Below, one piece after another: positions 14,757 through 34,005 of a stretch of DNA of 64,000 nt (positions are counted from its first letter, which is position 1; every line of letters begins with the position of its first letter). A program made the position numbers and the translations under genes. This DNA is from Ciborinia camelliae (Eukaryota; Ascomycota; Leotiomycetes; Helotiales; Sclerotiniaceae): NCBI GenBank assembly GCA_025890175.1, contig JANPYM010000003.1, positions 1,585,795-1,649,794 of the forward strand, in the 5' to 3' direction. Under the pieces are notes generated by a model. It did no database searches. It was not told where the DNA came from and saw only the letters and a program-made list of their open reading frames with translations.

Positions 14757-15052
14757 ATTGATAAAGCTTCAGTGGTATAACTGGCGAGAATATATGCCTT
14801 CAACGTTTCTTGCCGTGCTTGATTCCTATGAAGCTGTGAAAGTTGACAATTTTTGATAATGCACGGACCTCTTATTCCAACCTTCCGTTCCGAGGCTCGC
14901 ATTGGTGCACGTGCCGTCCGCCGCTAAGCGTAATCGACACCTCTCCGAAACGCATAGGTAGCCATCCTTTTGAAGTCTTTCTTGGTTGACACAATACCTT
15001 TCTTCCAAAGTTACACTTCAATAAGTCAATACATCTTCAATTGACTTTCAAG
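14757..15052. promoter_or_regulatory. Divergent promoter between uS13m and cyclophilin B
   Basis: The 296 bp between the two start codons must contain both promoters and 5' UTRs. No TATA box or named factor site stands out. Confidence 0.5.
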
Positions 15053-16135
15053 ATGTTCACTCTCCAACGTTTTGCAGTTTCTGCACTACTTATTATAACC
15101 ATTACCTTCCTCTTCTTTGCCCAAACATCCGAAGCTGCCAAAGGACCAAAGATCACCCACAAGGTCTACTTCGATATCAGCCATGGCGATAAACCTATGG
15201 GTCGTGTTGTTCTAGGTCTTTATGGCAAGACTGTTCCTAAGACCGCCGAGAACTTCAGAGCTTTGGCAACTGGAGAGAAGGGATTCGGATACCAAGACTC
15301 TACCTTCCACCGTGTTATCAAGGGCTTCATGATTCAAGGAGGTGATTTCACCAAGGGCGATGGAACTGGAGGAAAATCGAGTATGTTTCCGAATCTGCGG
15401 GCGATATGCGGAATTCTAACGATCGACAGTCTACGGAGCCAAGTTCCCAGATGAGAACTTTAAGTTGAAGCACTCCAGGAAAGGTCTCCTCAGCATGGCC
15501 AACGCCGGAAAGGATACCAATGGCTCCCAATTCTTCATTACTACTTCTACTCCAGGGTAAGTCGACTGGCCAAAAGGTCTTGAATTGGAATTGTCTCGTT
15601 TCTAACCCATTTGCAGCCATCTTGACGGTAGACACGTCGTCTTCGGCGAAGTCCTCGAGGGCTATGAGATCATCGCGGCCATTGAGGACGTAAAGAAGGG
15701 TGCATCAGATAGACCGGTCGAGGCCGTAAAGATCACCAAGAGTGGGGAATTACCAGTACCAGAAGAAGGTATCCATGCGGAACTCTAAAGTAGACTCCTT
15801 TTGCGGACACGCAAGCGTAATTGGGAGGACTTACTGATTCGTCTGTCTTACGTGCTGTAGATGAATACGGTTATGCCGAGTTTCAACCCGGTATGGAGGA
15901 GGTCGAAGTTCCACTTACACCAACCAATCCTTCCACACCTGCTTCCCCATCCGCAGTCATTCCAGTTGTTGGTACCCCACAAACAGAGAAAGAGACCGAG
16001 GAGTTTGGCTTTGCTGATGAGGCTGGTTACACTTTTATGCAGAAAGGATTATTTTTGTCTGTCATTTTGGGGTGTGTGGCTTTCTACATTAGAATGAACA
16101 GGAGAAGCAAGAAATTTGAAAGGTCAATCGTCTAG
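15053..16135 (+). CDS. ER membrane cyclophilin B-type peptidyl-prolyl isomerase
   Basis: Catalyses cis-trans isomerisation of prolyl bonds and should assist folding in the secretory pathway. Exons 15053-15380, 15430-15556, 15617-15768 and 15861-16135 give 293 residues. Residues 1-28 are a signal peptide (hydrophobic Ala-Leu-Leu-Ile-Ile core). The cyclophilin domain spans ~35-200 with Phe-His-Arg-Val-Ile (catalytic Arg), Met-Ile-Gln-Gly-Gly-Asp-Phe and Asn-Gly-Ser-Gln-Phe-Phe-Ile. After an acidic/Pro linker, a single C-terminal hydrophobic segment (Leu-Phe-Leu-Ser-Val-Ile-Leu-Gly) is followed by a basic tail, so the enzyme is probably anchored with its catalytic domain in the lumen. The Trp that contacts cyclosporin in human CypA (Trp121) is His here (His-Leu-Asp-Gly-Arg). 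Alternative non-splicing of the last intron would give a soluble form ending soon after the domain. Confidence 0.93.
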
Positions 16136-19155: not shown

Positions 19156-20553
19156 ATGGATACCTCTAAGAAAACCAAAAAGCCGAATGTCGCAAAAAAC
19201 CTGTAAGTGGTTTCGTAGGTATTGTGAGCAACTTGAGGGAATTTCAAATGAATGGTGAAACTCGAAACATTGACCGTGGACCATAACGTATGAAGGGCTG
19301 ACCATATTAATTATTTTAGTGGCACAAAGGAAGACCAGAAACCTCTCAAACTAATCACTTTAAAATCAGTGTATCCAACGAATGACAGGCGAAATAAACG
19401 CTTCATGAAAGCATCGGAAGACACTGTTTTTAAGAAGCTCCCTGTCCTTCGGTCATTATTTGAGATGAAACTCAATGGATCGTTCAAAGACACCAAAGAT
19501 GAAGTTTGCTACGACCCCGAGCACGCAAATACAGAAAAACCAGCGATTCCCCAAATCCCCGGAAAGATTGTATACATGTACAACTTGATCGAGTCGAAGT
19601 TCGAGCATCATCGCGTGGGATATAACAAAATTTCGGAATGGAATATTCACACTCTGTGGACATTGATGGACTGTCTCGTGCACTTCTTAGACGGAACGCC
19701 TTTACACACAAGTTCAAAGATAGGCCGTTCAGAAAAGCTTTGGGCCGTCGAGTTGGAAAGTATTAAATTTCTCGCAGCTTATCTTGGAAATAGGGAGTTG
19801 GAGGACAAAGCCATACACAGCGCACTTATCTCATACATGCGACAAATCCCCTCTACTGAGCCTACACACCCTGAAGAAAAGTTGTACGAAGGAAAAGGAA
19901 AAGGAACAGCAGAGCAACCAGAATCACTCCAGATGCAACTAAAACCAGTCCAGATGAAACCAAAACCACTCCAGATGAAACCAAAACCACCCCAGATTGA
20001 TGCAGCCAAAAAGTCAGATGTCTTTAATTTGACCAAGGACAAAGCCCCTATTCCACAAAAGTTGAAGAGAAAACTCGAATCGATTACCAATCCACCGAAG
20101 TCGAAGAAAAAAGCTCAATCGATTCCTACACGCGAGAACCTCCAATCTGTGCCGAAAGATGCATACATTCAACTCAACGAGAAATATCCACGTTTTCTTC
20201 GTGTAGACATTGACACGGCATTGAAGGGCTCAAAGCTAGTTGGTCAACTTCTGCAAGGCTTATATTCGGGAACTTTAGCTACAGGAGAGATGTCAAAGGC
20301 TGTTGGAAAGGATCGTGAGGGCAAACCTACATTGCTTTGGGATGAGGTACTGAAATATTTCAAGACGCCGGGAAGCATTGCGGAGAAGATGCTATCGTGG
20401 GATCAAGATTACCGTTGGGGGCCTATGGTAATGTTCGTTGAGCGGTGCCAGGTGGACCGGGCTTTGTGGCAGAATTGGGAGAATGACGATCTAAAGCTTG
20501 CCAAGCATTTCGATTCCTTTGTAAAGGCTCGTGTTCGTGCATCTGAGGTCTAG
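19156..20553 (+). CDS. Family-2 protein D: module, basic linker and LLWD domain
   Basis: Exons 19156-19202 and 19320-20553 (phase-2 intron, GTAAGT...ATTTTAG) give 426 residues. After a lysine-rich start, a ~130-residue module (about 60-190) has Leu-Pro-Val-Leu-Arg-Ser-Leu-Phe, a Cys-Tyr-Asp-Pro motif, Ile-Val-Tyr-Met-Tyr-Asn-Leu-Ile and Gly-Tyr-Asn-Lys-Ile-Ser. The linker has a Met-Lys-Pro-Lys-Pro repeat, Val-Phe-Asn-Leu-Thr (residue ~250) and a basic Lys-Leu-Lys-Arg-Lys cluster (likely NLS). The C-terminal domain (~285-426) carries Gly-Lys-Pro-Thr-Leu-Leu-Trp-Asp-Glu-Val-Leu and Trp-Gly-Pro-Met-Val-Met-Phe-Val-Glu-Arg. Gene E matches across both domains and has its intron at the same place and phase, so they are tandem duplicates. 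No known domain is recognised; nuclear location is inferred. Confidence 0.8.
19925..19995 (+). repeat. Coding repeat (Gln-Met-Lys-Pro-Lys-Pro units) in gene D
   Basis: Imperfect 21-bp units around CAGATGAAACCAAAACCA encode repeated Leu-Gln-Met-(Gln/Lys)-(Leu/Pro)-Lys-Pro in the linker of gene D. Gene E has no counterpart, so the expansion arose after the duplication. Confidence 0.7.
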
Positions 20554-21096
20554 ACTGGGGTAGCGAGGATTGGGTTGTCTCAATGATGCTTTATAGGTAT
20601 CTGAAATGAGAGGTGTTAAGAAGGTCAGCGTTGGGCACTAATACCCACCCGATCATTTAAAGTCTGGCTGTAGTGAGAACTGGCACATTGAAATGTAGAT
20701 AGGTAATAATACAACAACAAACATCATATCATATGCTCATATTTGGGGGTTTTGCCCACAATTTTCTGATACCTGGCTTGATCCATTAGTATATATACCC
20801 ATCAAATCCTTAACTTTATAACAATTACAAACACTTAGATGGTCGTAGATTGTCTGTAGAGATGTTACAAGATGTCCATCAGAAGGATTCATATGTGGTC
20901 ACGCATTTCAATAAACCAGAGCTCAATACGTCGCCGTAGTGAATATGTATGTCAGTGAATAGGTAATGTTGTATCAAAGAGACCAAAATCATCATTGCCT
21001 CTTAACTACCACCGATTCCGATACAAATAGTAGGTACACAAGTCCTATAGCCCTCCTTTCAACTCTCACCTCTCAAAAGTCTCATTGGCCACAAAA
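20554..21096. other. Intergenic region between D and E
   Basis: 3' flank of D and promoter of E. No gene or repeat seen. Confidence 0.5.
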
Positions 21097-22340
21097 ATGA
21101 AGACGACACTAGACGGACCGCAATTTATTAAGCCTCATCAAACACTTGTTGATGTCGAAACGGAAGCTTCAGATGAACCTATTAGCCGGTAAGTTCAGTT
21201 TCATTCACACAAAAATATTCAATGGAAGACAAGAACGCTAATACAGACAATAGAGATCCTGGGATACCCGCGAGGAATTTTAAAGTTCAGGCTTATCACA
21301 CGAATAAGAGGAGGGAGACGCCACGGTCTACTAGGATATCGGAGACCATCGTATTCGAGACCCTACCTATTTTCCGTTCAGTTTTCAATGCGAAAATACA
21401 CAGAGCTTTCGACACCAATGATGTTATATGTTACGACCCAGAAAATAAAGCGAGACCTCGACCATGGGACGAGAGAATCATTTACGTGGAGGAACTGGTT
21501 GCCTCGAGGATCAAGGAAACTGGCACGGAATACACAGAAATTGCTGGGTGGTCTGGCGACAAACTCTGGACATACGCTCATTGCCTGGTGAAATTTATGA
21601 GCAAGACACCACTACCTTATACTTCCTTCATGAAGTCCGGGCTTGGTGACATTGAGAGCGTCTGCATCCTCGCAAAGTGTTTCGGTGCCACAGACGAGAT
21701 CCTGACTGATTTGCGTAAGAATTTGCCGCCCTACATCAAACTTCGTCTTGCTCTACCGCCTGCCGACGTCAAAGATGGGGCCAGGAAGCCAGCAAAACGC
21801 CCAGGATCTCCCAAAGCGGACGGAACAATGAAGAAACCAAGAGTTGTCGTTGATTTGACCGGAAGTACACCTCCTCCCGAAGACAAGCGAACTTTAAGCC
21901 AGTCAAAAAGCTCCAAGAAAGAAGAATTGTCACCAATACCGGAGGTGGCATATATCCGATTGAATGAGTCTTCGCCTCATTATTACCGCATGAAGCTGAA
22001 AGACGTAAGAAATGCGTCGGAATTCTTGGGTGCACTCCTCGCTGATCTATGCAAGGGAGATCTAGTTGGTAGTAGATATAACATGGTTGGGAAAGATATC
22101 GATAACTCGCCCACTTTGTTGTGGGACAAGGTTCTGGCCTATTTTATGGATAGGGACTACGGAAGTACTCGAAGTTCCTCCGCTGCGATGATGAACTCCT
22201 GGCAAGAAGACGAGCGTTGGTCCCCTATGACCATGTTTGTAGAGAGATTTCAAACAGAGGAGGGCTCGCGGAAGACAAGGGATCCAATTGATCATCGCCG
22301 TGCTGAATGGTTTAACAAATTCGTGGGGGATCTTGTATAG
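21097..22340 (+). CDS. Family-2 protein E: module, SIM/NLS linker and LLWD domain
   Basis: Exons 21097-21188 and 21254-22340 flank a 65-nt intron (GTAAGT...GACAATAG, GCTAAT branch site) in phase 2, giving 392 residues. The N-terminal module has Leu-Pro-Ile-Phe-Arg-Ser-Val-Phe, Val-Ile-Cys-Tyr-Asp-Pro, Ile-Ile-Tyr-Val-Glu-Glu-Leu and Lys-Leu-Trp-Thr-Tyr. The linker carries Lys-Lys-Pro-Arg followed by Val-Val-Val-Asp-Leu-Thr (residues ~228-233), a strong match to the SUMO-interaction motif consensus with a nearby Ser/Thr and acidic residues. The C-terminal domain has Ser-Pro-Thr-Leu-Leu-Trp-Asp-Lys-Val-Leu and Trp-Ser-Pro-Met-Thr-Met-Phe-Val-Glu-Arg as in D. It has the same strand and same intron position as D, about 540 bp upstream. 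I recognise no catalytic motif; nuclear, SUMO-linked function is a hypothesis. Confidence 0.82.
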
Positions 22341-23711
22341 ATGGTTTTTTTAGGGATATCTTTTTTGACCTCCTTGGTGCTATTATTCCATCGAATCAAC
22401 TAGAGGCTGTTCACCTGGGAGATTTGTTGCGGTTACTGTGCCACCGGGAGGTACGGGATCTGATTGGGCTGTTCGAAGATACATATGTCTACTTAGGCTT
22501 TTATCCCTAGGATACTCATTTATGGCTGGACTGGGGAGGAACTGAGAGAGCCTCATTTACTAGATTAGGGAGGAGTATGACATTGAAGGATAGGGTTGGT
22601 GGGTTTCGGCTGATGAATAAAAGATTAATGTATCATTCCTGATTGGCGAATTCTCTGTTTATTTGAAATGATATACCGATTGATATATGAAGGTACGGAG
22701 TACTAGGTAGATATTGATGTAAAATGATGGTTGTCTAAATCTTTAGAAAACTGTGGCTTGAGTGACCGTGACCTTGAACCTCACATAAGTGCCCCACATG
22801 AGTGGCTAGTTCTAATATATCCAGTAGGTAGGTTTAAAGCCCCATGTCAGGCATGACTAATCCAAATTAATTTACCAACTCACACTTCACCTCACTTCAT
22901 CATGAACCATAGCAATTTGGTTTCTTCTTCTACGTAGGTAGGTACAGTCTCGGCTAATAAATAAAGATTAGATGTATTCTCTGTTTATTTGCAATGATAA
23001 ATCCAAGACAGGCCAGGTCTTTTTGTGGAAGATGAATGATTGATATATGAAGCTACGGAGTGGATATTCATTCATGTAAAATGATGGTGGTCCCAAACTC
23101 TTGATGTGCTGTGGCTTGACCTTTTCGCCACATCGATGCAACTGCTCACCTCAGGCATGACTAATCCCAACTAGTTTCCAACTAAAACCTAACCTCACTC
23201 CATTTTGAACTTTAACACAACGCGATGAATGATCACTCTTGACCCCAAAGCCAATCTCAACCTTTGAAACTTATTTTAATACTGACTAGAGAAACTGCAT
23301 CATTGAGTTTGAAGAGGCAGATAATGGAACGAGCCATGAAACCAATTCTCGGGCAGATCATCTGCATGTTGGTATCAAAAGGTTTGTATTTGGCATGGAG
23401 TCTTGGTATATTGAGTTGGAAAGAGCATTCTTAGGTCAGGCGATCTTATCTGCTGCAATCTCAATACTTCAAGTACTACCCGGAATGAGTGCTCCCCCAC
23501 TCCCCCACTCCACTATCTCCCCTCACCCTGCAATCCATCATTAGGAAACAAATTCTGGCCTTATCCACACGCTCAAACTCACCCCACCAGCTTGATCTCT
23601 CTAGTCCATCTCCATATCCTTTTCTGCTGTCATATTTTCCATCCGCGAAGTTACTTGCGATTCGTAACCTTAAAACCTATTAGTAACTCGAACAGTAATC
23701 GAAAGAATTTG
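22341..23711. other. Intergenic region containing a diverged direct duplication
   Basis: Between converging genes E and H. Most of it is a ~300-bp direct repeat pair (22604-22907 and 22948-23210, listed separately). A - strand frame at about 23470-23660 could be a downstream exon of gene H. No other gene seen. Confidence 0.5.
22604..23210 (+). repeat. Diverged tandem duplication of about 300 bp
   Basis: Copy 1 (22604-22907) and copy 2 (22948-23210) share landmarks in the same order: TTCGGCTGATGAATAAA / CTCGGCTAATAAATAAA; ATTCTCTGTTTATTTG; GATTGATATATGAAG; TACGGAGT; TGTAAAATGATGGT; TGTGGCTTGA; CAGGCATGACTAATCC; then CCTCAC...TGAAC. Differences include indels, so the duplication is not recent. 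It is non-coding. Confidence 0.8.
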
Positions 23712-24313
23712 TTACCTGTTTTTCAAGCGGCGGTCCTCGCCATTACTTGATGTATCCATAGCACTTCCAAATTGTGGTTGTGCCTCACTCTTTTTATTGC
23801 AATTACTAGACTCCCCTTGCCTTGCTGCAAGTAGCTTCCGTTGATTTCGATAGTTCCGCTTCTGCTCTTTTCGGGCAGCTGCGACGGCTGCTGGTATTTC
23901 CGCGTTGCTCAACGTTCCCAAAGCAATTTGCCTCTGTTCTTCCTCTATGTATAGCCGCCTCTTCTTCCTGCCATTTCTTGTCGAACTAAATTTTGGTCTG
24001 AGTATTCTCGCAGGTCCTGAAATTTGTGATCGGGTTTCGTTATTGTTCTCGGTCATTTGAACATCGATATTAGCGCCTTGTAGATTATGCACTATAACGT
24101 AACCTTTCATCAGTCGTAGAGCCCTGATGACAGACGATCGTTAATAGATATTAACTTACTCTTGGTATGTCCTTGCTGCGTAAAGTCGCGCAAGCTTGAG
24201 TTACCGGCGGCATTTTGCACCATAGGTGATTCCAAACTATCTTGTAGGGAATCAATTGTACGATTACCTACTCGTATAACTAGAAACCTTTCATGGCCAT
24301 CGATTTGTGCCAT
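23712..24313 (-). CDS. Small basic protein H, unrecognised
   Basis: Exons 24160-24313 and 23712-24091 flank a 68-nt intron (GTAAGT...GTTATAG) in phase 1, giving 177 residues. The first ~50 residues are mixed. The middle and C-terminal part is strongly basic: Asn-Gly-Arg-Lys-Lys-Arg-Arg-Leu-Tyr-Ile-Glu-Glu-Glu, then an Ala-Ala-Ala-Arg-Lys-Glu-Gln-Lys-Arg-Asn-Tyr-Arg-Asn-Gln-Arg-Lys helix, a predicted coiled or nucleic-acid-binding helix with NLS character. The end reads Leu-Lys-Asn-Arg-stop, and the stop sits inside a GTAAC donor-like sequence. Using it, a further open stretch at ~23470-23660 could extend the protein. Divergent from gene F with ~750 bp between starts. Function unknown. Confidence 0.6.
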
Positions 24314-25064
24314 ATTGCTGTTGGGAATTTGTTATTCGAAATGTTTTTTGTATTATGCTGTAGTGTCGAACACCGAACAAAATACAGGGGGATACCAGAG
24401 ACAGGCAACTGAGAAATAAGGCATGTGATATTATCACATGTATAGCTCGCTTATCTACTTATTCTAAAACAAACTCCCTTCTTCCAACAAAGCATCTTCA
24501 CGAACTTGGCTGTTGGCTTAACCGTCGAATTAACGATTACGACGCAGTAACATGCGACCAGAACGTGACATCCGGTGACGAGATGCTGTCGGTACCTTTT
24601 TTTTTGGTATCTCGACAGAGAATATTTCTCAATTTTTTTTGATCTTTTTTATCCTACCTTCTTCTTTTTGGGTTACACATACATTTTGGGGGTGGAGGTG
24701 GAGGTGGACAGTGGATTTCTTTTTTGGATTAACAAAATACCCGATAATCATGTTTTTGTGGGGAACATGGATTGAATTCAACTTGGAAAACATCGATGTA
24801 TTCTGAGTGAATGTTTTCCCCAATTGTTATGTACATGCAGTTCTCATTTGGTAGCCTTGTCTTCTGCCATAGAAATTTACTATCGTAATTCAATTGGCCC
24901 TAAGATAATTTGCCAAGTCAATTTCTATCTACCTCGCACCTTCCTTGTTTTTGCTGTGCAGGTCTTTCCAAATACACACTTTTTGAGCTTCTGGTATTTA
25001 TGGCGATTCTCCGCCTTTTTTATTTATCCCCACGACAACTATATTCTACCATTACGAATAAACT
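24314..25064. other. Divergent intergenic region between H and F
   Basis: Contains the promoters of H and F. T-rich + strand runs at 24595-24665, including a TTTTTTTTTT-type run, and a GGAGGTGGAGGTGGA trinucleotide-like repeat near 24691-24710. No gene. Confidence 0.5.
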
Positions 25065-26664
25065 ATGGCATCATCAACTCTCAGAGACGAGCTTAAAGAA
25101 TTATGGGAGGATTTGCCTGAAGATGATAGAATCAAAGGTTCTCTCAAGGATAGTCTTAAACAGCAGATTGCAAGATTAAGAACGTTGATTGCCACTATTT
25201 GCGACCCAGAAGAGGACGAGAATGCCAAGTTTATTGTTCTGGAGCACCATGAGGATCCCACCAGACCTATCGGTGCTGATAGACAGCCGAAACTCGTGCT
25301 TTCAAGTACCAAACATCTTTTAAATAACTGCAGTCTGTTTTCCCACGTATTCGACCTCAAGGCATCGGATGCCAATTTTGATCGCTATGATATGGTGGCG
25401 TATGCCCCATCTGCCCAAAACATCAGAGAATCTGAGTTCGCAATTAAGGATAAATGCATCTACCTCGATGAATTGATGAAACGAGAGTTCATTACTCAGC
25501 ACACCGGCTATAATTCTATCGCGAAGCTTGAGTCACAGCAAATCATTTCACATCTTGTCTGTTGGCAAAGATGGTTATCTCAAAACAAACTTCCAACAAC
25601 TTGTACGCTGAAGCAACAACAAGAAACTCTCAATGTTGCTGGTTTCTTTGGAGCAAGCCCTCGTTCATTAGCCCTTGCCGCGATGAGATATGGGCTTGAG
25701 ATGCCAGAGGCAAACAGCAGCGGCTCCATCAATATCATTAGCGATGATGAATCTGGAGACAAAAAGGCCGATGAGAGTAGCACATGTGATGCGCTCAGCA
25801 ATGTCCTCAACAATATTTCAGATGAGCCGAACGATGACCCTCCTTTTAATCCTTTAGCAACGAATGGGTGAGTCCTGCATCTTTCCTGAATTCGAATTCG
25901 TGCAGATATGTTTGCTAATACCGTCTATTTTTAGTAAAACGCCAAGCTATTCTCGGTCTGTACTACAGGAATCAATATCACAGGTACCATTGCCTCCAAA
26001 AGTAGGCACAATAGAAGCCAGAAAATATGTTGTCATCTTGAAAAAAGAGCTTTCAGCGGAGATGGATAAGAAGTTGGCCGAGACAAATTGGGGTAAAGGC
26101 TACACTCCAACTTATATCAGATGTTGGAAGATGTCTCTCCATGAGACAGCCCCTCGGCTTCTAGAGCTTTTCAATGCTAGAGAAAAGGGGTCTAACAAGG
26201 AAGTAGGCAAATCTGAACTTTGCGTAGGCGATTCCCACGTTTGGGATCCTATTTTCAGCGAAGAAAAGAAACCATACTGCCACTACCCACAGTTGTTTCT
26301 TGACGAGGTTAATTCCGATTTCTCTGATCAGTGGGAAGGGCATGAGGAAGTAAATGGATACACTCATGGGCGTAAGAATGGGAAAGATATACTTTGGCTG
26401 GCCGTCCAATTTTGGATTCTTTTTGCGGACACCAATGGGGTAGGCGACCCTCCCCAGAGCAGTCAAGAGGAACTAGCAATGAAGGAAGAGATGGTGCACG
26501 CCGTCGGCAAATGGCTTGGGGCAACTAGGGAGAAGCTTCATCGCTTCGATGTTACCTGGGGTACTAAGATGAAGAGTGATGACCCGAATAATGCACAAAG
26601 AAAGCGGGCTCACGGTTTTGGGGGTGAAGGTTATTACCCAAATAAGCGAGGATTCAGACAGTAG
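25065..26664 (+). CDS. Family-2 protein F: two copies of the family module
   Basis: Exons 25065-25867 and 25935-26664 (67-nt intron, GTGAGT...TTTTTAG, CTAATA branch) encode 510 residues. The N-terminus is a charged helical segment. Module 1 (~65-215) has Leu-Glu-His-His-Glu-Asp-Pro, Met-Val-Ala-Tyr-Ala-Pro, Ile-Tyr-Leu-Asp-Glu-Leu-Met, Gly-Tyr-Asn-Ser-Ile-Ala and Ala-Gly-Phe-Phe-Gly-Ala. A linker has Ile-Asn-Ile-Ile-Ser-Asp-Asp-Glu (from residue 222), an acidic SUMO-interaction-like motif. A second module (~320-475) repeats the pattern: Ala-Pro-Arg-Leu-Leu-Glu-Leu-Phe-Asn-Ala, Val-Trp-Asp-Pro, Leu-Phe-Leu-Asp-Glu-Val, Ile-Leu-Trp-Leu, Gly-Lys-Trp-Leu-Gly-Ala. The LLWD domain of D/E is absent. 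The C-terminus is basic. No enzymatic motif seen. Confidence 0.82.
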
Positions 26665-29600
26665 TGGGGAATAAAGGAGGGGAGTGCTGATAATGGGAGA
26701 GGTCTTTAATACCAAATGCTATCATATATGATTGCTATTTCCTCAGAGTTATTCTTTAATGTAGTTATAAGATGTCATTTTATTTGGGTTATCTCTCAAC
26801 CTCATCGAAGATTGTTAAGACAAGTCATTTCAAGATCCAACTCCTTGTGAACATTACATGTATCTTCACCTAAGGCTTCAAGGCCAGTATTTATCTCCTT
26901 TTAGCTCCTAATCATGGCCATGTATATCTCATACAAGCTGCCCACATCATTGTTCTCAATGCTCTATTCTACAGAGTATACATTGAATATATCATCGAGA
27001 GTTTATGAAGTGCTAGACTTTATTGTGCTAGTGATTCTTTGATGATTTATCACTCTTCCCAAAAAGTATCCAAATTTTGTTTCTCAATGCTTTCATCCAC
27101 AAAATATGTTTTGATTGTATCATCGAATACTTTTGAGATCAGTAGACTATGCTATATCATTTCCTTGCACTAGTTCTGTCTATCTTTGCAGAAACTGTTC
27201 AAACTAGTACCTCTAAGTAATCATAATTCTCAAACCAGTTATGTATATTTCATCAGTGCTCTTTTAGACCATTCTTCTTCAATATTCTGTACTGAAATTT
27301 GTAGTTAAACTATCATATTAAAGCAACCTAAGCAGACTCTCCATGGGCATTTAAATCTAAGATGGATCTTGAGCCTATATCTTCGGGACTTGTTGATTCT
27401 AGTAGCATTGAATATCTAGTGTGTCTTATATCACTTTTATATTATCTTCGAAGCTTTTGAAGTCAATAGTGTCCGAAATTCCAGATATACATGACAATTT
27501 GTTTGTATTATCAGAGGCTTACAAGGCTAATAGCTCTAACCTTTGACTTCCCATCAAGTATTTAGCTGATCTTCTTGGAAAATGTTAAAAGTAATACCCT
27601 TAAAACCACAAATTCTCTACAATATTGACAGTAGTATCATTTAAGGATCAGACACTAGTACTAATCCGACTATATTCTGGTAAGAAGGCTTGGTCCCTAC
27701 CATCGAAAGCTTATTAGACTACCTAGGTATTGTTTTGCATATGATAACCTTTCTGAAATACTATAGCGGTCTCATTTAAGCCTTATGAATGTGTCACGAT
27801 GCTAAAGCATCGAGGTTGAAATATAGTATATTGCTGAAGAGCCCTTACACCTATAAATGGCGAAGCCCTTTATATGCGTAAGGTAGATAGTACAGCCGTA
27901 CGGCTGTACGATCTAGCGAGAAGAGGTGCCTAATATCTCAGGCGTAGCCTGAGATCCTAGGCACTCTTCTAAATCTACCGTAGCAGAATGACTATTGTGT
28001 AACGCTGTACAGCTTTGGATAGATAACGTCTATTCCATCGAAATTCATTAGACTGTTTTGATTCCAAGTGGTCCTCATTTTAAATATTGCAACTATTTCA
28101 TCAAAAGTTTTAATATAACTACCTTTTAGTACTTGAGTTTTGAATGTATATCTTCTCTGTATTAATGAAAACTCATTAGACTATTTTTCCGTATATTAAC
28201 TAGGTACTGCAGCTCTCTCATCGAAGGTCTGAGAACTTGTGTGGCTGATCTTTAATGTTTTAGTTCTTCAAAAATATTATGAATGTAGTATGCCAAGTCC
28301 ACTAGATTGTTTTTCTTTAAATTCAAATATGACAATATTATATCAGAAGATTATAGTTCTACTATCAATTATCAATAAATTTTCTATAGCCGGAGGATAT
28401 ATTATCTAAATTATCAAAAGTCTGGAGACTACTATTGTCCAAATTTCTATTTTGCTATTGGCATTCTCCTCATGACACCAAAAATGACACAAATTTTCAA
28501 GTTTACCATCTAAATTTTCATCCTCCTGTCAATGCTACAACTATCTCATTGAAACTTCTCAGGTTCATTCTTTTCATATTCCACACTCCATGCATATCCT
28601 GTGTATTCGCCTGACAGATTGTTAAATTGCCCTTCTCTTTAGTATTCAAGCAGTTGCACAATATTAATACAGTTCTATAGTCAAAGCACCCTTGACTACT
28701 AAGATTAGATAGCCTCTCTTTTCATAATATCACCCTTAACATGAAAAGTTTTATCAAAGATTTCCTCTAAATTTGATCCTCCTGTTAGTGTTTGAGTTGT
28801 GCTATTAAATTTTCCTAGACAACTATCAGCGTATGCCACCTCTCCTCCTCTATAGTATCCTCCTGATTTGTCACTTTTCCTTCGTATTTCTCAAGTGAGA
28901 AAGTGGAGCAAGCACATGGCATTTCTTTTATGTCTTATCTCTTGCTCGCTTAATGTTATTGTAGCCACCTACAAGTCTTTGGCCTCGTTACCCTTAGATC
29001 CGGCAATTAAATCCCCTGCTTCTTACTCTACATTACTAACTTTACTACTACTACATTGTGCAAGGTAACAGTCTTTCTTGATTTCCCGGATTTCCCTCCC
29101 GTCGTTCCATCGTAACTCGCGTAGCCTAGGGGGCGGGTGGGGGGCCCTTAAGTTTAAGGCATGCTATCCCAGCCCCTAGATAACGGTACACATTTTTATA
29201 TTCTATCACCATCCCATTGAAATTATCACAAAGTCTCCACCATTCCCATGAAAATTGAATGTGGAGCCAATTTAGAGCTGAAGCCTGTAATTAAACCCCA
29301 AATCTGAATTTTACTCAAGCTTCAACTTCAAATTTCACTCCTTAAAAACCCCTATATTTCAAAGCACAATGAGAACTCCTATTGTACAAAACCCTACATA
29401 TATTTATCTATGGTTGCTCTTGATAATTCTCGGTTTAAACTGTTAGTTAACAAATGCCAATTGTCACTAGTAGATATTCTAAATTCATCGGAATCTGTCA
29501 CTAATGCTCTGGAGAATTTATATATTGCATCATTGTACCAAGACTTATGATGAATAGACATTCTTACCATATGATGACATGAATCACGCTGGGGATATGG

Positions 29601-29992
29601 CCCCGCAACTATCAAATTTCAGGACTCAGGCATCGGATTGTATTGGGCTAGCAGTAGAGTGTCTAAAACTTCAGTTAGCTAGCAACATCTAGTCCCAGAT
29701 ACACGCGTAAATAACTCATTTGAAATGCTAAATGTCATCGAGTCAATGTGGCAGTTGGATAGCTGCACAGCTGATCTCATTAGCAGAGTCAATTAGCCTT
29801 TTTTAAAAGAGTACTGATTATGAAAACATTCAATTCATTCCTAAAAGAAATTGGGTGAATCTTATTGCCTCCTCCACAACCCCTATCTCGTCCCAAGTAT
29901 TAGCGAGAAATTTACCCTAGCAACCTCAACCGTACTAACTAATCCAGCCTCACACAAAACAACTTGAGAACTCAACTCTTCCAACTCCAACG
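26665..29992. other. 3.3-kb gene-free block of degenerate repeats
   Basis: No credible gene on either strand. Between about 26800 and 28560 phrases of the form (T)(A)TCATCGAA...TTTTGA...TAGACT recur irregularly every ~60-250 bp. Examples start near 26989, 27119, 27441, 27700, 28035, 28096, 28216, 28410 and 28545. It is interrupted by a hairpin-rich segment at 27797-28013. It looks like an old, diverged repeat array; the content is AT-rich and TpA-rich, as expected of repeat-induced point mutation (inference). A G-run lies at 29128-29146. Confidence 0.5.
27797..28013. repeat. Nested hairpin / palindrome cluster
   Basis: Within 217 bp: a 7-bp-stem hairpin (27797-27812); a 41-nt hairpin (27843-27883) with outer CCTTAC/GTAAGG and inner ATAAATGGC/GCCCTTTAT arms; a perfect 20-bp palindrome GTACAGCCGTACGGCTGTAC (27890-27909); a 52-nt hairpin (27919-27970) with ~22 paired bases on each side of a GTA loop; and a 10-bp palindrome GCTGTACAGC (28004-28013). 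GGTAGAT (27882-27888) and ATCTACC (27973-27979) enclose the third and fourth, making a branched, three-way-junction-like fold. It is GC-richer than its surroundings. It could be a foldback transposable element, a GC cluster or a structured RNA. Confidence 0.75.
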
Positions 29993-31728
29993 ATGCGAGA
30001 GTTGACAGCCAGCTATTCCCCTGGCAATTTTCTTCAACCAGTTAAATCTGTCATTGGAGGATTTGTTTGGAGTTTCCTTTTCCTATCCCACTTCTTTAAT
30101 CTGGAGTTTATTGTAACAAGCCTTTTTTTTTTGACCTTTATGACATATTTCAGATAAATTCACAATAACTATTTTAAATTCATCAAATCGCCCATAATTT
30201 CTTCCATTACAGCCCAGGAGGTGCTTGATAAATTGTACAAAGAAGTGATGCTGCCTGTGGCGAATGCTAAAGGAAGTCATCTCACAGCAAAAGAAGTGGT
30301 GGAACTCGACGCCCTTATCAAACAAATGCAAAAGCTCTTTACAAAGACTAAGACTCTAGGAGTCGGTGATATCAATTCTGTGGAGGTGGTCCTTACAATT
30401 CGATTATCTAGGACGACTCAAAACAATGAACATAAGGGAGAACAGAACGTTCCAGATACAAGGTAACTCAAATTCTCCTCTTCCTTAAGTCAAAAGTCTT
30501 TACTAATTGTTGTGTTGTGTTGTGTCGCACTAAAACGCTCTGAGCCCGATCCTGATAATGGTAGAATCTATATCATGCAACATCATGAAGACCCAAAGAG
30601 GTAGATTGATGCTCCCGGCCAGCCTCCATACTTCAGAATGAGTGAAAGGCTTGTCTTTGAGGCTCCTCCTCTTTTCCACATGTTGTTTCCAAGACCAAAC
30701 CAGCCACTAACTCCACAATTAAGTTCCATGATAATCTCTTCTACCCACCAGAAAAAGATGACAACATCGTGTTCGACCCCGCTTCAACAACGGTGCCTAA
30801 GATTTTCTTTCCGGGTGCCAAGATCTTATATATCGATGAGTTTTTAGAGTCTGCTGTAGAAGAGTCCCAAAAGACTTACGCGTCAGTCAAAAACATGCCA
30901 CCTGCAATGTTCATGGAATACATGAAAGCCTGGATTTACTATAATGTTGAGCGAAGAGTATCTTTTGTTGGACCAGGGACAGTTGAACAGATACAGGCTT
31001 TCATTAATCGGATATTGAGTCTCGCGACATTTTTCGGGGTATCATCCAATGCCACCGAGGAAGCATACAAAACCATGTTCACTATCTGCTGGTGGAAGGG
31101 TCGTAAACAATCAGTATTATTCGAAAGCCTTAGCCTCCAGGCTCCAGCAAGCTCTCAAACAACCTGGAGTATGCAAAATCAGAGAGGTCGCCAAGCAAAG
31201 ATAACAAGGTATGTCATGTTGAGCGGATGAAAGCTATCGTCAACGATGGATACCCTTACTGACGTATCAAAAAACACAGTGAGAAGAACACTACTATTCG
31301 GTTCATCGACACGGCCACGGAAACTACACTCAACCACAATATTACACATTCAAGAAGGCGGATATTTTCCTAAAGATCCCTCTCCTTCTTACTCTTTACC
31401 TACACAAGTTGAATGGTTCCCTGGGAGATTTAGCAGACGAATTGATGTACGACCCAGATATCTCTATTCAGAAAAGGACTCCTATCACTGTATTGGTATT
31501 TATATTCACGCCTTGATGAGATCTCAATTTATGAAAGATCAGCCTGGATATGCCAATATCACGACAAGCCCAACGAGACTGCGTCAATCCTTCAGACATC
31601 TTGGCTTTTGGGCAGAAGGCACCGTAACAGTAGGGTTGACTATTAGAGAGATTCAGGATCTGACCGAGCTGGCTGTATTTCTTGAGGTAAAAAAAGTCAA
31701 TTACGAATCATTTGGTAAGTCCCTTTAA
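29993..31728 (+). pseudogene. Family-2 gene G, two-module paralog of F, degraded
   Basis: Segments match gene F in order: a helical start (30213-30462), Met-Gln-His-His-Glu-Asp-Pro-Lys-Arg (30575-30601; F has Leu-Glu-His-His-Glu-Asp-Pro-Thr-Arg), a first module (30620-31080, Ile-Leu-Tyr-Ile-Asp-Glu-Phe) and a second module (31380-31728, Ile-Tyr-Ile-His-Ala-Leu-Met...Gly-Tyr-Ala-Asn-Ile). Lesions: an in-frame TAG at 30602-30604, a frame change near 30716-30725, an unsplicable junction around 30463-30545 and another frame change near 31345-31375. The TAG could derive from CAG by a CpA-to-TpA change, as in repeat-induced point mutation. The intron at 31209-31279 still has GTATGT and CAG. I call it a pseudogene; fragments may still be expressed. 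Confidence 0.65.
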
Positions 31729-32580: not shown

Positions 32581-34005
32581 CTAAGAGGGGTTACATTGCG
32601 AATACCAAACGCTATAAACGACACAAGTTGTACCAGGTACACAAACAGTTCCACCGGTCCAGCCCTCTCCACCACATTGATTCCACTCATTGACAAGTCC
32701 TGCACCACTAGTCGAAGTGGCGCTCGCGCTGGTTGTCACAGTGGTGAGTGTCGAGCCTGGAGTTGTCGTTGTCGTTGCCGTTGCGGTAGCGGTAGTAGAC
32801 AGCGCTGGATTACCAAGATCAGCACTAACCGCATCAAGGTATCCATTATTGGCGTAAAGTTGACTCATATCCCACATCATCACACCTCCAAAACTAGAGA
32901 AGGTTTTTGAATATGCAATGACATTTGCAAGAGCGGTCCCAGAAATATAACCAGCACCAGCACCCGTGTTGGCGGGTATTCCTAGCATAACTTTGACTTT
33001 CGGGTTGAGAGATATGGTTTTGGCCCAGGTATCCCATACGGCGAAGTTGAAGTTCTGGCTTGCTGCACCGGCGACAAAGGACTGGATTCCGCAGTAATTA
33101 TTGTAGAATTGTACCCAGACAATGTCGAATGATACTGCTCCAGCTAGCATGGGACCATCAGCGGCGTCAGGGTATGGACACTGTGGAGCGGCGGAGAGAA
33201 GCCACGTCTTGGACTTATTTGCATTCATCAGTGAGCGGAGTTGATTCGCGAATGCAGGCATGTTTGATACAACGCTTTCAAAGTCAAAGTCAAAACCATC
33301 GACAACGGCTGTTCCGAATGGCCGGACTGCACTTGCGTTGTAGGGTCCAAACCACGACCAAACATTATTGGCAGCAGTGACAGCAGCAGCTGTACTGGTG
33401 AAACCACCTTCAGTGTAAGTGGCTCCACCTATGGAAAGTAGGATCGTCTTGCCATATGTTTTTTGGCATGTAGTGATATCGGCTCTAGTAGGGATGTTTA
33501 GACAGTGTAATTGATGTAAAGATGAAAACCTATACTTACTCGAGCTGCGAGCAGGAAAAGAGTGTAGATCCTGCAATTGCCGTGCATATATCTCCTTGAT
33601 TAGCAAAGTTGAGAACTGGTGTATTGACCGATAATAGGAACGCGAGAGGTATGATCTATGGCTTTGATTAAAATGGTGCAAGGGGGTTTTCAGAACAGCT
33701 CGTACATTTATTTTTGTATCTAGTTTATGTCAGTTTTGTTGGCATTTAGATTTCAGCTCTGAATACTTACTTGCGCAATAATAAGAGAGGCGTTGTTGCA
33801 CATAAGCTCCACTTCCCTGACCATATGAATTTTGTCCTACCCTGTATCAGTTCAAAGTCCCGAGTTTATCGTTTCGAGAAGTTCATATAATCTCACCCCA
33901 ATATACGGCAATGTTAGTCTGCGAGGCCGTATCGAAACCCGCAAGCACGGAAGGAATACCAGCCATGATGCCCACAAAAGGGGCAAGCTTGGAAAGTAAA
34001 AGCAT
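32581..34005 (-). CDS. Class III chitinase (GH18) with C-terminal CBM1
   Basis: Secreted endo-type chitinase acting on beta-1,4-GlcNAc chains of the fungal wall. Exons: 33897-34005, 33771-33836, ~33540-33655 and 32581-33484; about 395 residues. The signal peptide is followed by Asn-Ile-Ala-Val-Tyr-Trp-Gly-Gln-Asn-Ser and Gly-Ala-Tyr-Val-Gln-Gln-Arg-Leu. The GH18 core has Leu-Leu-Ser-Ile-Gly-Gly-Ala and the catalytic Asp-Gly-Phe-Asp-Phe-Asp-Phe-Glu (final Glu the proton donor). A Thr/Ser-rich linker leads to a type-1 carbohydrate-binding module ([14 protein letters not shown]). The junction between 33655 and 33771 does not close: exon 2 ends in phase 1, but the next exon, read from the TAG acceptor, needs phase 0. 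Either a 2-nt-remainder micro-exon is missed or there is an indel. Confidence 0.88.

Follow-up and report, generated by a model that had tools for sequence, protein, structure and literature searches.

What kind of protein does a small gene family encode when its sequence matches no known domain? The family in question lies in a 64,000-nucleotide stretch of the genome of Ciborinia camelliae, a member of the Helotiales and Sclerotiniaceae (assembly GCA_025890175.1, contig JANPYM010000003.1, positions 1,585,795 to 1,649,794), here called the window, and consists of genes D, E, and F and a further relative, G. An initial annotation, made from the letters alone, described four genes sharing a module of about 120 residues, recognised no known domain, and proposed a local, lineage-restricted expansion. 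Analysis of sequences and predicted structures suggests that the family probably conceals a known fold, that of the BTB/POZ domains, in variant form. The best explanation also takes D, E, F, and a broken G to be an old, fast-evolving gene cluster of the Sclerotiniaceae.

That the genes share a module is well supported by profile-profile comparison, as the annotation of a single family had proposed. The D and E modules match each other with an expectation value (E) of 8.9e-28, and a profile of the D/E module matches the first module of F (F1) at E=5.9e-9 and the second (F2) at E=1.4e-5. Compared directly, F1 and F2 gave 0.35, which is not significant, so that the link between them, and the inclusion of F2, runs through D/E. 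The module is longer than first described: about 150 to 165 residues for D, E, and F1, with F2 reaching 184.

The resemblance to BTB/POZ domains was found in the AlphaFold model of D, in which the elements are, at medium confidence, strands 11-18 and 25-32, helices 33-39 and 41-53, strand 61-63, an insert, and helices 109-124, 138-154, and 163-174. The BTB/POZ core order, B1/B2/A1/A2/B3/A3/A4/A5 over about 95 residues, is present in the predicted D module (this was read for D only), and structural comparison of the module model with VIA-align returned BTB/POZ folds as its top matches. The D module is therefore predicted to be a strongly diverged BTB/POZ fold, one in which an insert separates strand B3 from helix A3. 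In the order of its predicted elements and in its top structural matches it resembles the superfamily of KEAP1, SPOP, SKP1, KCTD, and Kv T1 (Pfam PF00651 and relatives). It differs in that the insert adds a strand and two helices, and the family differs further in that F carries two modules in a single protein. The structure model of F was poor, with a mean predicted local distance difference test (pLDDT) score of 40.1.

At the level of sequence the likeness disappears. None of the pieces or members scanned matched a Pfam family at an E value under 0.01, and the PF00651 cut-off was not reached; with no BTB match in these scans and none in the window, the family is not filed under PF00651. The same genome has 53 PF00651 matches, 51 of them above the Pfam cut-off, all outside the window, and comparison of the module profile with 29 of these ordinary fungal BTB proteins was not significant. 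The annotation's statement that no known domain is present thus holds for Pfam and for sequence profiles, where no match to a well-characterised domain was found, but it is weakened at the level of the predicted fold. The ordinary BTB genes also occur in local clusters, several of them tight (C12 2.47-2.49 Mb, C23 491-497 kb, C8 80-140 kb, and C9 758-761 kb). Two ordinary matches contain internal stops, and at C5 1836454-1837344 two matches lie in an apparently single open frame.

The C-terminal "LLWD" domain of D and E, described as distinct from the module, may be less so in D. Its predicted order in the D model is strand-strand-helix-helix-helix-strand-strand-helix, followed by low-confidence helices, which resembles that of the module, and by eye PTLLWDEVLKYF in this domain occupies the place of KIVYMYNLIESKF in the module. 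Profile-profile comparison with the D/E module (0.85) and with F2 (0.14) did not show homology. We consider it somewhat the better guess that the D domain is a second, diverged module; the original division into one module plus LLWD for D and E and two modules for F and G is doubtful.

The E and F gene models are 100% identical to the public Ciborinia camelliae proteins NHQ30_002969 and NHQ30_002971, respectively (E aligned from residue 32, and by eye over its full length). The introns of D and E split a codon after its second base, 9 (D) and 7 (E) residues ahead of the module start (KLITLKS and NFKVQA), confirming the shared phase noted initially, and a phase 2 intron likewise precedes F2. 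Such introns ahead of modules are what one might expect if the module had been duplicated as a unit with its exon. Within the E-F interval, a frame of 142 residues is open on the minus strand at 23712-24140 and has no Pfam match, and the locus-tag numbering leads one to expect a gene NHQ30_002970 between E and F.

D, E, and F are open and intact, but G, listed as a fourth gene, is broken by an in-frame stop and carries its module remnants in different frames. Read separately, with no frame mended, its four pieces matched the all-module profile at E values of 5.8e-9, 2.8e-6, 0.0038, and 0.0082. Two positions resembling splice donors, 30463 (identified by eye) and 31209, are likewise in phase 2 relative to the open frame around them and are candidate sites only. 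G may be a decayed member of the family, or assembly indels may lie behind its frame changes. The gap between F and G (26700-29400) is AT-rich, with a GC content of 0.34-0.36 at 27-29 kb, and has no long open frames.

Six-frame searches of the whole genome (46.2 Mb; queries D, E, F exon 1, F exon 2, and two G pieces), which score only the best candidates, placed all listed matches with E<=1 within the cluster. Three protein searches found 19 relatives outside Ciborinia. All 16 that are named come from Sclerotinia, Stromatinia, Monilinia, and Botrytis/Botryotinia, genera of the Sclerotiniaceae; among the named relatives, the expected restriction to Leotiomycetes is thus borne out, and narrowed to one family. 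Ten of the relatives were added by a profile, for example Monilinia laxa EYC80_004431, assigned to D. These searches require shared 5-residue words, and two of the three scored only the best approximately 8000 candidates, so that remoter relatives could be missed.

The cluster itself recurs. Judged by locus tags, its members are neighbours in M. laxa (EYC80_004431 for D, 004432 for E, and 004434 for F), Stromatinia cepivora (EAF04_001835 for E and 001836 for D), Sclerotinia nivalis (OCU04_007872 for F and 007874 for D), and S. borealis (SBOR_8990 for D and 8992 for F). A tree was built from 26 modules, leaving out P0020 (module partly missing) and P0021 (without the module); the program cautions about long branches. 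Each of the four groups D, E, F1, and F2 is one side of a branch in it, with support of 66/97 in the case of D and between 100/97 and 100/99 in the other three. As counterparts of D, of E, and of F also occur outside Ciborinia, the duplications appear to predate the genera sampled. The proposed local, lineage-restricted expansion is therefore not supported if taken to be a recent one.

Between module and C-terminal domain, D and E have a lysine-rich linker, and at a corresponding site in it a VIDLT-type stretch was seen, by eye among loose pattern matches, in 14 D/E-family proteins (P0021 left out). E has VVDLT and Stromatinia VIDLT, while in four others the stretch reads IVDLT or IIDLT and has acidic residues after it. 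A strict core, [VI][VI][DEN]LT, a pattern that we set after VIDLT, occurs in 7 of the 14 linkers, including that of E and excluding that of D (VFNLT); sets of 14 shuffled linkers gave a mean of 0.005 strict cores, and none of 1000 rounds reached 7, although the sequences are related and so not independent. Column conservation at the stretch (0.43-0.55) is not above that of the few other measurable linker windows. The VIDLT core of PIAS1 binds SUMO tightly (PMC3901395). The D/E stretch is like that motif in its core, in the acidic residues that follow it in several members, and in its low predicted order, and unlike it in that half of the members (7 of 14) have a degenerate core and SUMO binding is putative. 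Docking of the D/E linker on SUMO is accordingly a tentative proposal, less likely than not and weaker for D.

How might such proteins work? We regard as fairly probable a BTB-like fold core with a generic adaptor role: D, E, and F would be non-catalytic adaptors or scaffolds that use their BTB-like domains to bind one another and further proteins. F has two modules, whereas D and E have one clear module each and a C-terminal domain that may be a further-diverged one. In D/E the lysine-rich linker could perhaps direct the protein to the nucleus, and its VIDLT-type stretch could attach it to partners carrying SUMO. Some BTB domains are known to bind cullin 3, in fission yeast among others (PMC2785787); such binding is hypothetical for the predicted BTB-like domains here. 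The fullest version seems unlikely as a whole: a tandem BTB-like class specific to the Sclerotiniaceae, not recognisable from its sequence and with a SUMO-reading linker, in which D and E recruit partners (a cullin-3 ligase, perhaps) to nuclear proteins that carry SUMO, and D, E, and F work as one set.

The same evidence can be read otherwise. The module may have a separate fold with no relation to BTB, and the likeness may have arisen by chance from the way strands and paired helices are placed in a model of medium quality; we consider this rather improbable. More improbable still is that these are decaying orphan genes with no present role, left over from an old cluster that is disappearing, with G already gone that way. 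Identity between genera is only about 42-60% for E and F, and the searches, which may miss some, detected E in just 4 species and F in 6 named ones, Ciborinia included, yet D, E, and F remain open in Ciborinia and near-full-length relatives with conserved core positions align from several genera. Fast change and restriction to plant-infecting fungi might also suggest secreted effectors acting on the plant, which we judge very improbable: judged by hydropathy only, none of 13 proteins has an N-terminal signal peptide or hydrophobic stretch (10-residue maximum of 1.44 in the first 35 residues, versus 2.91 in the neighbouring cyclophilin), and the lysine-rich linkers are of an intracellular type.

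Table. Positions in the window of the genes, modules, and linker features (all on the plus strand)
Feature	Position	Protein	Detail	Basis
Gene D	19156..20553	426 residues	exons 19156-19202 and 19320-20553; phase 2 intron 19203-19319	spliced frame open
D module	19348..19842	residues 26-190	BTB-like predicted fold	AlphaFold model and VIA-align rows
Tandem array, D linker coding sequence	19916..19997		21-base-pair unit, 3.9 copies	Tandem Repeats Finder
D linker VFNLT	20020..20034		weak form of the VIDLT-type stretch	not counted as strict
D C-terminal LLWD domain	20161..20535		perhaps a second, further-diverged module	element order in model; not confirmed by profile comparison
Gene E	21097..22340	392 residues	exons 21097-21188 and 21254-22340; phase 2 intron 21189-21253	NHQ30_002969
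E module	21276..21749	residues 39-196		profile comparisons
E linker VVDLT	21846..21860		SUMO-interacting-motif-like
E C-terminal LLWD domain	21948..22337	residues 263-392		alignments
Gene F	25065..26664	510 residues	exons 25065-25867 and 25935-26664; phase 2 intron 25868-25934	NHQ30_002971
F module 1	25227..25709	residues 55-215		D/E profile against F1
F module 2	26023..26574	residues 298-481		D/E profile against F2
G	30158..31728		broken relative, remnants of two modules; in-frame TAG 30602-30604
G module 1 pieces	30605-30844, 30661-31227		different frames	all-module profile
G module 2 pieces	31283-31513, 31231-31725		different frames	all-module profile

The cluster is flanked upstream by the cyclophilin with a hydrophobic N-terminus (14990-15451) and downstream by a GH18 chitinase-like frame carrying a CBM1 domain (32584-33729).

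We give these results moderate weight, the biological role being inferred only. D, E, and F are most likely docking proteins and not a new kind of machine, and the locus illustrates that an old conserved cluster can pass for a local expansion when a single genome is read alone. If the BTB-like reading is true, an "orphan" family of the Sclerotiniaceae would be a known fold that has drifted beyond sequence detection, and its members would form a fast-evolving BTB-like set with a putative SUMO-docking stretch open to testing.
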